A stretch of 38,850 nucleotides of DNA from Anaerolineae bacterium (lineage in GTDB: Bacteria > Chloroflexota > Anaerolineae > DRVO01). The position numbers and the translations under genes are program-made. The notes under the pieces are model-generated. The model worked only from the letters and a program-made list of their open reading frames with translations. It ran no database searches and had not been told where the DNA came from. This document shows positions 430 through 38,148 of this stretch, piece by piece (position 1 is the stretch's first letter; the number at the start of each line of letters is the position of its first letter). The stretch is from positions 1 through 38,850 of the forward strand of contig JABLXR010000038.1 in assembly GCA_013178015.1 (NCBI GenBank), written 5' to 3'.

Positions 430-565
430 GGTAATGGGAGCGAGGTTCTCCGAATCGTCGGCCCTACCGGCTTGCGCCCACGGGCCGTCGGTCGCGGTCT
501 GCCCTCGGGCAGCCAAGGGTGGAGGGGGAAACGCCTCCGCCTCCCGTGTTTGGAAAGGAGAACGC
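430..565 (+). ncRNA. Moco (molybdenum cofactor) riboswitch aptamer
   Basis: The 3' part (511-560) closely matches the Moco RNA motif I recall from the leader of E. coli moaA. It has GCCA-A-GGG, a hairpin (519-525 with 534-540) and then the hallmark CGCCTCCCGT...TGGAAAGG. A closing helix P1 pairs 445-451 (GTTCTCC) with 557-563 (GGAGAAC), seven Watson-Crick pairs. An inner helix pairs 459-464 with 482-487. The element lies between a promoter and a Moco biosynthesis operon, which is where this class acts. In the known class Moco binding usually lowers expression of biosynthesis genes. Motif matching was by eye from memory; a covariance model search was not run. Confidence 0.85.
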
Positions 566-620
566 ATGGGCGTGTGTCGTCGTCGCCGGCGTTCTCAGAG
601 AGAACGCCGGTTTCTGTTGT
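557..620 (+). terminator. Riboswitch expression platform: terminator with competing antiterminator
   Basis: A hairpin with an 11-bp perfect stem (586-596 with 600-610, counting the C596-G600 pair) is followed by TTTCTGTTGT, a moderately U-rich tail typical of an intrinsic terminator. The 3' strand of aptamer helix P1, GAGAACGC at 558-565, is also perfectly complementary to 589-596, the left arm of the terminator. The RNA can thus form P1 plus terminator, or the antiterminator (558-565 with 589-596), but not both. Ligand binding should stabilise P1, free the terminator and switch the operon off. Confidence 0.75.
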
Positions 621-2366: not shown

Positions 2367-3596
2367 GTGAGGTCTTCCGACTATCCGATGATCGAGCCTG
2401 ACGAGGCCTGGCGGCGCATAGCGGCCGCGTTGAGCCCGCTGCCTCCCGTCCAGGTACCCCTGGGCGAAGCCCATGGGCTCATCCTGGCTGAGGAGGTGGT
2501 GGCGCGGGAGGACCTGCCTCCCTTCGCCGCCTCCGCCATGGACGGATACGCCGTCATCGCTGCCGATCCCGCACCCGAGCGGGAGGTGATCGCCCAGTGG
2601 GAAGCCGGGCAGAGCGGGGTGGGCACCGTCCGGCTGGGCACTGCAGTGCGCATCATGACCGGAGCGCCCCTGCCCCCAGGCGCGGACGCGGTCGTCCCCT
2701 TCGAGGACGCCGACGAGCGTAACGGCTTCGTTCGCCTGCGGACCCCCGTGCGCACCGGGCAGTACGTGCGGCCAGCCGGGCAGGACGTCGCCATCGGAGA
2801 CTCGCTGTTGAGGGCGGGCATGCGTCTGGGCCCGGCCGAGATCGGCCTCCTCGCTTCCCTGGGCCACACCGCCGTGTCGGTGCATCCGCGACCGCGCGTG
2901 GCCATTCTCACCACCGGGAGTGAGTTGGTACCGGCCGAAGCCACTCCCGGCCCGGGGCAGATACGGGACAGCAACGGCCCGGCGCTGACCGCGGCCGTGA
3001 TCGAGGCCGGCTGCAGCCCCCTGCCCCTGGGGCCGGTGGCCGACGACGCCCATGCCCTGCGGGCCGCCATCCTCGATGGAGCAGCCCGGGCCGACATGCT
3101 CCTCACCAGCGGCGGGGTGTCCATGGGCGTCAAGGACCTCGTCAAGCCCCTGCTGGCCGAGCTGGGCACCATCCACTTCGGTCGGGTGGCCATCAAACCC
3201 GGCAAACCGCTCACCTTCGCCCTGGTCGGCGGTGTACCCGTCTTCGGGCTGCCCGGATTCCCGGTGTCATCGCTAGTCTGCTTCGAGAACTTCGTCCGTC
3301 CGGCCTTGAGGCTCATGGCGGGGCACACCCGTCTGTGGCGGCCTGAGGTGCCCGTTCGCCTCACCCACGACCTGCACCACGACGCCGAGCGCACCGAGTT
3401 CCAGCGCTCCGTCGTCACCCAAAGGGAGGGAGTCCTCTGGGCCACCACCACCGGCTCCCAGGTGTCGGGCCGACTGAAGTCGCTCGTGGGCGCCAACGCG
3501 CTCCTGCGACTGCCCCGTGGCCTCGGCGACTTCTACGCTGGGGACGAGGTCATAGCCATCATGGTGGAACGGCCCGAGGTGGAGCGGCAGACATGA
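2367..3596 (+). CDS. moeA: Molybdopterin molybdenumtransferase MoeA, copy 2 (variant motif)
   Basis: This is a second full-length MoeA-like protein of 409 residues directly behind the first. It shows SAMDGYAVIA, RIMTGAPLPPGADAVVPFED, LTTGSELVP, TSGGVSMGVKDLVK, IKPGKPLTFA and GLPGFPVSSL. It differs from copy 1 at signature sites: PGFP replaces PGNP, TGSEL replaces TGDE, and SMGVKD replaces SVGDFD. GTG 2367 has GGAG ten bases upstream; ATG 2388 is an alternative giving MIEPDEAW. Some organisms carry two MoeA types thought to differ in metal (Mo or W) or partner, so functional divergence is plausible but not shown here. Confidence 0.9.
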   Translation: MRSSDYPMIEPDEAWRRIAAALSPLPPVQVPLGEAHGLILAEEVVAREDLPPFAASAMDGYAVIAADPAPEREVIAQWEAGQSGVGTVRLGTAVRIMTGAPLPPGADAVVPFEDADERNGFVRLRTPVRTGQYVRPAGQDVAIGDSLLRAGMRLGPAEIGLLASLGHTAVSVHPRPRVAILTTGSELVPAEATPGPGQIRDSNGPALTAAVIEAGCSPLPLGPVADDAHALRAAILDGAARADMLLTSGGVSMGVKDLVKPLLAELGTIHFGRVAIKPGKPLTFALVGGVPVFGLPGFPVSSLVCFENFVRPALRLMAGHTRLWRPEVPVRLTHDLHHDAERTEFQRSVVTQREGVLWATTTGSQVSGRLKSLVGANALLRLPRGLGDFYAGDEVIAIMVERPEVERQT

Positions 3597-4582
3597 CCGC
3601 CAGCCTGCGCGATGCCTTCGGGCGCTCTATCACCTACTTGCGCCTCTCCGTCACGGACCGCTGCAACCTGCGCTGTCTCTACTGCATGCCCGAGGAGGGC
3701 GTCCCGCTCAAGCGCCACGATCACATTCTGCGCTACGAGGAGATCGTTCGGCTGGTTCGGCTGGGAGCAGAGCTGGGAATCACCAAAGTGAGAGTCACCG
3801 GGGGCGAGCCCTTGGTGCGCCCTGGAGTGGTGCAGTTGGTCCGGATGCTGTCCGACATCCCCGGTCTGGCCGACATCGCCCTTACCACCAACGGCATCCT
3901 CCTGGCCCAGCACGCCCGGGGACTGGCAGAGGCGGGCCTTAAGCGCGTCAACGTCAGCCTCGACACTCTTCGGCCGGAGCGCTTCCAGCGCATCGCTCGG
4001 CGCGGTCGGCTGCAGGACGTCCTCGACGGACTTGAGGCCGCTCGCTCCGCCGGGCTCTCGCCCATCAAGGTCAACATGGTGGTCATCCGCGGCCTCAACG
4101 ACGACGAGGTGGTGGACTTCGCTCGCCTGAGCATCAGCGAGGGTTGGCACGTCCGCTTCATCGAGGTCATGCCTCTGGGGGAAGGGGAGCACTGGACCCA
4201 CGACGGGTTCGTCCCCGCCTCGGAGATGCGGGCCCGCATTGAGGCAGAGCTGGGCCCACTGGCACCCCTCCCCAGCGACCGGAGCGGTCCCGCCCGCACC
4301 TATCGCCTCCACGACGCGCCAGGGACGGTCGGCCTCATCACCCCGGTGACAGAGCATTTCTGCGGCACCTGCAACCGCCTGCGGCTCTCCGCTGATGGGC
4401 GCCTGGTAGCCTGTCTCCTCCGCGGGGGAGAGCTGGACGTGCGCGGTCCTCTGCGGCGCGGCGCTACCGATGACGAGTTGCGCGCCCTGCTCCTTCAAGC
4501 GGTGGCCTTGAAGCCGGCTGGGCATCGCCTGGCGCAAGGCGAGCCTCTGCCCGCCAGGAGCATGTCGGGCATCGGAGGGTAG
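3593..4582 (+). CDS. moaA: GTP 3',8-cyclase MoaA (radical SAM)
   Basis: MoaA carries out the first step of molybdopterin synthesis, converting GTP to 3',8-cyclo-dihydro-GTP together with MoaC. The radical-SAM cluster motif CNLRCLYC lies at residues 24-31. The second, C-terminal Fe-S cluster is marked by FCGTCNRLRLSADG and a later cysteine in LVACL. The protein ends in the Gly-Gly tail (SGIGG) needed by MoaA. Length is 329 residues, normal for the family. The ATG overlaps the stop of moeA copy 2 by four bases, indicating translational coupling. Confidence 0.96.
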   Translation: MTASLRDAFGRSITYLRLSVTDRCNLRCLYCMPEEGVPLKRHDHILRYEEIVRLVRLGAELGITKVRVTGGEPLVRPGVVQLVRMLSDIPGLADIALTTNGILLAQHARGLAEAGLKRVNVSLDTLRPERFQRIARRGRLQDVLDGLEAARSAGLSPIKVNMVVIRGLNDDEVVDFARLSISEGWHVRFIEVMPLGEGEHWTHDGFVPASEMRARIEAELGPLAPLPSDRSGPARTYRLHDAPGTVGLITPVTEHFCGTCNRLRLSADGRLVACLLRGGELDVRGPLRRGATDDELRALLLQAVALKPAGHRLAQGEPLPARSMSGIGG

Positions 4583-4585
4583 GCG

Positions 4586-5059
4586 ATGGAGCTGTCCCAT
4601 CTGGACGAACGGGGTCAAGCCCGGATGGTAGACGTGGGGGGGAAGCCGAACACTGTGCGCGAGGCCGTGGCCCGGGGCGAGGTGGCCATGTCCTCAGAGA
4701 CGCTGGCGCTCATCCGCGCCGGCCAGGTGCCCAAGGGAGACGTGCTGGCCCTGGCCCGCGTGGCCGGCATAATGGGGGCCAAGCGCACCCCCGACCTAGT
4801 GCCCCTGTGTCACCCGCTGCTCCTCTCGGCCGTGGAGGTGGACCTGAGCCTGGACGAGGAGCGCTCCGCGGTGGCGATCGAGGCGCGGGTGCGGTGCACC
4901 GGCCAGACCGGGGTGGAGATGGAAGCCCTCACGGCGGTGGCGGTGGCCGCCCTGACCGTGTATGACATGTGCAAGGCGGTGGACCCGGGCATGCGCATGC
5001 ACAACCTGCGGCTCGTGCGGAAAAGCGGCGGTCGCAGTGGGACCGTGGTGCTCGAATGA
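4586..5059 (+). CDS. moaC: Cyclic pyranopterin monophosphate synthase MoaC
   Basis: This 157-residue protein converts the MoaA product into cyclic pyranopterin monophosphate. It contains the hallmark segments [35 protein letters not shown] and [11 protein letters not shown]; the lysine in DMCKAVD belongs to the active site in this family. It starts three bases after moaA and its stop overlaps the ATG of the next gene. The pairing moaA-moaC is standard; no moaD or moaE follows, so molybdopterin synthase must be encoded elsewhere. Confidence 0.96.
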
Positions 5060-5532
5060 GTCACTCCGAGGGAGTGTGGACAGTGGATCGAAACAGGATC
5101 GGGCAGTTGGTGGCGGTGTGCCTCAGCGAGACCAAGGGCACCCCCAAGACGAATGTGGGATCAGGTCTCCTACGTGTGGATTGGGGGCTGGAGGGCGACG
5201 CCCACGCCGGCAAGTGGCACCGGCAGGTGAGCCTGCTGGCGCTGGAGAGCATCGAGAAGATGAAGGCCAAGGGCCTTAACGTCGCCCCAGGAAGCTTCGC
5301 CGAAAACCTCACCACCAGCGGCCTGGTCCTCCATACCCTTCCCGTGGGCACCCGCATGAGGATCGGCGGCGCCCTGGTCGAGGTAACCCAGATCGGCAAG
5401 GTGTGCCACGACCGCTGTGCCGTCTACGAACAGGCCGGCGACTGCGTCATGCCCCGCGAGGGCATCTTCGTCAAGGTCCTCGAGGGAGGGCGGGTGCGGG
5501 CCGGGGACCCGGTAGAGGTGCTGGAGCGATAG
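5056..5532 (+). CDS. MOSC-domain protein
   Basis: This 158-residue single-domain MOSC protein has the family pattern: [44 protein letters not shown], and the CHDRC segment with the cysteine typical of MOSC domains. MOSC domains are found in Moco sulfurases and in small proteins thought to handle Moco or sulfur. The start ATG overlaps the moaC stop (ATGA), making it the last member of the Moco operon. Its position supports a Moco-maturation or carrier role; the precise function is unknown. Confidence 0.85.
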
Positions 5533-38075: not shown

Positions 38076-38148
38076 CAGGCCAGGCAGGACTTGAACCCGC
38101 AACCTACGGTTTTGGAGACCGTTGCTCTGCCAATTGAGCTACTGGCCT
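38076..38148 (-). tRNA. trnW: tRNA-Trp (CCA)
   Basis: The molecule is 73 nt. The acceptor stem AGGCCAG/CTGGCCT is fully paired, the D-loop reads AGCTCAATTGGCAGAGC, and the anticodon loop CTCCAAA has anticodon CCA. The T-loop is TTCAAGT within the GCGGG/CCTGC stem. The discriminator is G and no CCA tail is encoded. The location between rpmG and secE is conserved in many bacteria. Confidence 0.97.

Follow-up and report, generated by a model that had tools for sequence, protein, structure and literature searches.

The window, a stretch of 38,850 nucleotides from an Anaerolineae bacterium, carries a Moco riboswitch aptamer and, directly downstream on the same (forward) strand, an operon whose genes overlap or are separated by short gaps. 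These are mog (643-1146, molybdopterin binding, GTG start, MoCF_biosynth, PF00994, E 6.5e-34), two copies of moeA (1139-2362 and 2388-3596, each with MoeA_N, MoCF_biosynth and MoeA_C domains), moaA (3593-4582, Radical_SAM and Mob_synth_C), moaC (4586-5059, PF01967, E 6.3e-59), and a gene for a MOSC-domain protein (5056-5532, PF03473, E 3.8e-15), the start of which overlaps the moaC stop. Pfam gene calls agreed with the order mog-moeA-moeA-moaA-moaC-MOSC given in the earlier note on this DNA, and this content is consistent with end-product feedback. The Shine-Dalgarno sequence of mog, GGGAGG (632-637, + strand), lies outside the switch, and its local pairing differs little between the two folds described below. 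A leader ORF at 566-673 was considered as a conserved part of the region and rejected, its ATG being lost within the genus and barely enriched class-wide.

A candidate promoter on the + strand was recognised by eye at 368-396, comprising TTGCCC (368-373), a 17-nt spacer and an extended -10 element, TGC-GATACT (391-396), with a predicted transcription start near 403. The string TGCGATACT recurs at a similar distance in the leader of a same-genus relative (L027). A consensus promoter scan did not report the 368-396 site, and the assignment is therefore tentative. Between promoter and aptamer lies a 5' leader stem-loop (403-444, + strand, -17.5 kcal/mol), possibly a 5' stabiliser; stem-loops of unrelated sequence hold the same place in L027 (-27.5 kcal/mol) and in a same-family leader, L031 (-13.0 kcal/mol). 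Upstream of the leader, at the contig end, positions 1-219 comprise nearly three tandem copies of a GC-rich 75-bp unit (93% match), and a tRNA gene, likely Trp (CCA) from its anticodon loop, is found on the minus strand at 38076-38148.

Aptamer, competing strands and their conservation

The earlier note had placed a Moco riboswitch at 430-620, and the Infernal search of Rfam that it proposed returned RF01055, the Moco riboswitch, at 446-563 on the + strand with 73.6 bits (E 4.2e-16), well over the curated cut-off of 36 bits. A genome search found no other Moco RNA. Of the eight closest relatives of Mog, seven are labelled Chloroflexi, Anaerolineae or Anaerolineales and one Thermoflexia, in support of the placement in Chloroflexota that the earlier note thought probable. 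P3 is present, both as aligned in the cmscan output and as a CUGCC...GGCAG hairpin in the predicted folds, and the long stem 3' of P3 carries a GNRA (GAAA) tetraloop, where GGGGAAACGCC aligns with the GAAA loop of the model. P3 assigns the aptamer to the Moco type as that was defined in 2008, and by analogy its ligand would be Moco, as was inferred from E. coli genetics in that work (PMC2408646).

Four segments of the leader can exchange partners: the P1 5' arm (segment A, 445-451, GTTCTCC), the P1 3' arm, which is also the antiterminator 5' arm (B, 557-565, GGAGAACGC), and two segments, C (589-596, GCGTTCTC) and D (600-608, GAGAACGCC), held in the arms of an intrinsic terminator hairpin (585-611, -21.4 kcal/mol). 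Pair by pair, P1 (445-451:557-563) has 7 bp, the antiterminator (558-565:589-596) 8 bp and the terminator 11 bp, all Watson-Crick; the sequence and the Rfam alignment also support the P1 5' arm. P1 and terminator can form together, while the antiterminator shares bases with each and so is mutually exclusive with both. The four segments and their compatibilities thus stand as originally read, in position and in every claimed pair.

A terminator scan reported one site, 585-611, against 0.2 expected. The U-rich tail (TTTCTGTTGT, 611-620, + strand) has T at seven of ten positions, the first of them within the last pair of the hairpin; this tract is broken and imperfect, as are the tails of the same-genus and same-family leaders. 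When 566-642 was shuffled with its dinucleotides preserved, 41 of 5,000 sequences offered 8 bp or more of antiterminator pairing, 0 of 5,000 an 11-bp hairpin, and 0 of 5,000 the two jointly, so that the terminator and its overlapping antiterminator are not a product of chance.

A further pairing, beyond those listed previously, is available in the antiterminated fold, where 445-450 captures 600-605 (-11.0 kcal/mol in the window) and so completes a partner swap among all four strands. The same pairing of P1 5' arm and terminator 3' arm is weak in L027 and L031 (about -5.3 kcal/mol), placing it outside the conserved core of the mechanism, and it is marginal across the class (12 of 300 swaps reached the cis value in the test described below). 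Of the clean overlap of P1 and terminator arm emphasised in the earlier note, the part that involves the terminator 3' arm is species-specific.

The antiterminator itself is kept in both near relatives. In L027, GGAGAACGC faces GCGTTCCTCC in the terminator 5' arm, with one bulge, and in L031 the same GGAGAACGC faces a perfect GCGTTCTCC within a terminator of otherwise different sequence. Moco RNAs were found in 56 of 100 class relatives searched. In all, 108 leaders were collected (L001-L108, including that of the window), and terminators were called in them mechanically. For the 61 leaders with a downstream terminator, each pairing in cis was compared with partners exchanged between loci, and none of 300 swaps reached the cis value for P1, for the whole antiterminator, or for its variable part taken by itself; the control pairings A:C and B:D were matched or exceeded in 242 and 299 of 300 swaps, respectively. 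The result for P1 and antiterminator held in a dereplicated set of 45 loci (0/1000 swaps), such swaps and the removal of similar loci reducing the contribution of shared ancestry and not eliminating it. Antiterminator runs of at least 8 bp occurred at 39% of loci, compared with 4% after shuffling. Lack of a significant Moco model hit and loss of complementarity in homologous leaders had been named as outcomes that would count against the proposal; the hit is strong, and complementarity is retained in L027, in L031, and class-wide by the swaps.

A terminator after the P1 arm was called at all mog (7), moaA (6), fmdE (7) and moeA (2) loci. One mog leader of the class, L044, showed no clear antiterminator (-5.4 kcal/mol), and the mog leaders of several of the closest Mog relatives (L109-L112) had no Moco RNA, so that the distribution of the riboswitch is patchy. 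Tandem Moco RNAs on the same strand were seen at L023/L050, L077/L025, L040/L006 and L012/L038, where an OFF-type terminator follows the first copy and, in most cases, no clear one follows the second. In an actinomycete MAG, a ZMP/ZTP riboswitch lies just 3' of mog (L118:2104-2197), recalling the tandem ZTP switch reported at moeA (PMC9481103).

Predicted action of the switch

The fold preferred by predicted energy changes as the transcript grows. For RNA ending at 598, the antiterminator ensemble (-97.1 kcal/mol) is better than that with P1 (-95.0) by 2.1 kcal/mol, while for RNA ending at 612, P1 plus terminator (-111.8) is better than the antiterminator fold (-105.7) by about 6 kcal/mol; these values omit tertiary contacts and co-transcriptional kinetics. 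Because the antiterminator is only slightly preferred early, a ligand that stabilised P1 would tip the early choice to termination, and the predicted profile is that of a poised, ligand-triggered kinetic OFF switch. By the same reasoning, an advantage of just ~2 kcal/mol over ligand-free P1 means that the ligand-free state may be leaky.

Given the match to the aptamer model, the conserved alternative pairings and the balance of predicted energies, the element is very probably a cis-acting Moco riboswitch that would shut down the Moco biosynthesis operon by transcription attenuation, presumably acting co-transcriptionally. With little Moco available, the 3' arm of P1 (557-565) would pair with the terminator 5' arm (589-596) as the latter emerges, delaying the hairpin and allowing polymerase to read through into mog-moeA-moeA-moaA-moaC-MOSC; without ligand, the antiterminator would have to hold kinetically until polymerase is past. 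The 5' arm of P1, then unpaired, may in this species also capture the terminator 3' arm (445-450:600-605). When Moco is bound, P1 would be locked and 589-596 left free to pair with 600-607, so that transcription would be expected to stop at the hairpin, in the U-rich tract near 611-620. The earlier proposal of an OFF switch working by attenuation thus fits both the predicted energies and the conservation of pairing.

Control at the level of translation is very unlikely, although the sequence offers some material for it. AAAGGAG in the P1 3' arm could serve as a ribosome binding site, as at E. coli moaA, where a Moco RNA hides such a site in P1 (PMC2408646). It would drive the leader ORF (566-673), an open frame of 35 codons that overlaps the mog start and begins with an ATG at suitable spacing, and at one locus of the class (L093) a gene does appear to start straight from the P1 arm. 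Against this, the ATG is absent from the same-genus leader, which reads GCCAGG, and is there at 15 of 92 class loci compared with a 9% background; in the window, AAAGGAG is base-paired whichever state the switch is in; and mog is served by a separate ribosome binding site (632-637).

Still less likely is a constitutive attenuator, in which the aptamer would be degenerate or uncoupled from the terminator. The full-length fold does prefer the terminator even without ligand, and the imperfect U-tract could be read the same way, but the aptamer scores far over the cut-off, and the P1 and antiterminator pairings, which a decoupled element would not need, are kept across genera. An ON switch, in which ligand binding promotes read-through, is the wiring predicted upstream of tungsto-/molybdoenzyme genes elsewhere in the class, but it is highly improbable here, since P1 and terminator coexist, the P1 arm lies outside the terminator, and a scan of the window locus for an ON-type hairpin found none.

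Opposite wiring in the same class

The leader survey, which covered Chloroflexota, also gave an unplanned result. At 24 of the 26 Moco-RNA loci that precede genes for aldehyde ferredoxin oxidoreductases (AORs) or Fe-S/molybdoenzyme genes, the 3' arm of P1 doubles as the terminator 5' arm, so that ligand-bound P1 would block termination, a predicted ON switch. These ON-type loci are L010, L020, L043, L058, L076, L078, L081-L083, L086, L088, L090-L092, L095-L099, L101-L103, L105 and L107. In L081, for example, the hairpin GAGGCAACAGT...ACTGTTGCCTT is followed by TTGTC, and in L020, AGGAGATC...GATCTCCT is followed by TTTTTT. Outside the AOR/Fe-S group, with genes grouped by BLAST clusters and the Pfam domains of representatives, there were 8 ON and 66 OFF calls (Fisher p about 4e-15, a value that overstates the evidence because the loci are related); some of those ON calls (e.g., L013 and L035) are doubtful, being based on long hairpins. 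At L074 and L075, an ON-type Moco RNA was also seen upstream of a gene that would not be expected as a target, for a short-chain dehydrogenase.

Aptamers without P3, as judged approximately by a rough pattern call, were found under either wiring, the OFF form upstream of moaA included. In other Chloroflexota classes, 32 loci were called OFF and 4 ON, with 6 uncalled, OFF thus making up 32 of the 36 with a terminator call, and the next genes that could be recognised were mostly for uptake or synthesis. The sole AOR-like locus among them (L156) had no terminator call, and so these classes provide no test of the ON half of the pattern.

It appears probable from these predicted structures that two opposite wirings exist in the class, OFF at genes for cofactor synthesis and metal uptake and ON at genes for cofactor-using enzymes (AORs and the Fe-S partners of molybdoenzymes), and that polarity would track gene role more than the presence of P3. 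Under the ON reading, cofactor would be sensed such that the tungsten or molybdenum apo-enzyme is made only when its cofactor is present. This two-way wiring may be the part that is new: no ON-type Moco or tungsten-cofactor switch is described in the largely open-access literature searched.

Relation to known systems

The Moco RNA class was defined by Regulski et al. in 2008, who ascribed the OFF control that they showed in E. coli to a ribosome binding site within P1 and noted intrinsic terminators downstream of other members, some organisms having both types of platform (PMC2408646). Tandem Moco and tungsten-cofactor switches were described in a 2022 review (PMC9481103), and a 2025 RNA-seq analysis reported that transcription terminates at the Moco locus of E. 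coli (PMC12121620). The window RNA resembles the Moco RNAs of the 2008 study in its aptamer core with P3, its Moco biosynthesis targets and its predicted OFF logic. It differs from the E. coli example in its platform, an exchange of terminator and antiterminator in place of a ribosome binding site hidden in P1, and the accessible text of that study makes no mention of Chloroflexota (PMC2408646). Terminator-type platforms of Moco RNAs receive brief mention in the accessible literature.

From the tungsten-cofactor (Tuco) variant, which lacks P3, the window RNA is distinguished by having this element, while sharing with it the family model and the P1 architecture. With its compact and conserved terminator/antiterminator pair, the window leader could allow ligand binding to be read out in a simple transcription assay, which would be useful given that free Moco is hard to handle. 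The organism of the window belongs to the same phylum as Dehalogenimonas. In that genus, Moco riboswitches have been reported upstream of moaA-moaC, the same aptamer class with the same kind of target, and the accessible account gives their presence without an expression-platform mechanism (PMC13390414). Set beside these systems, the window element is a well-supported new example of a class which, together with its terminator platforms, has been known since 2008.
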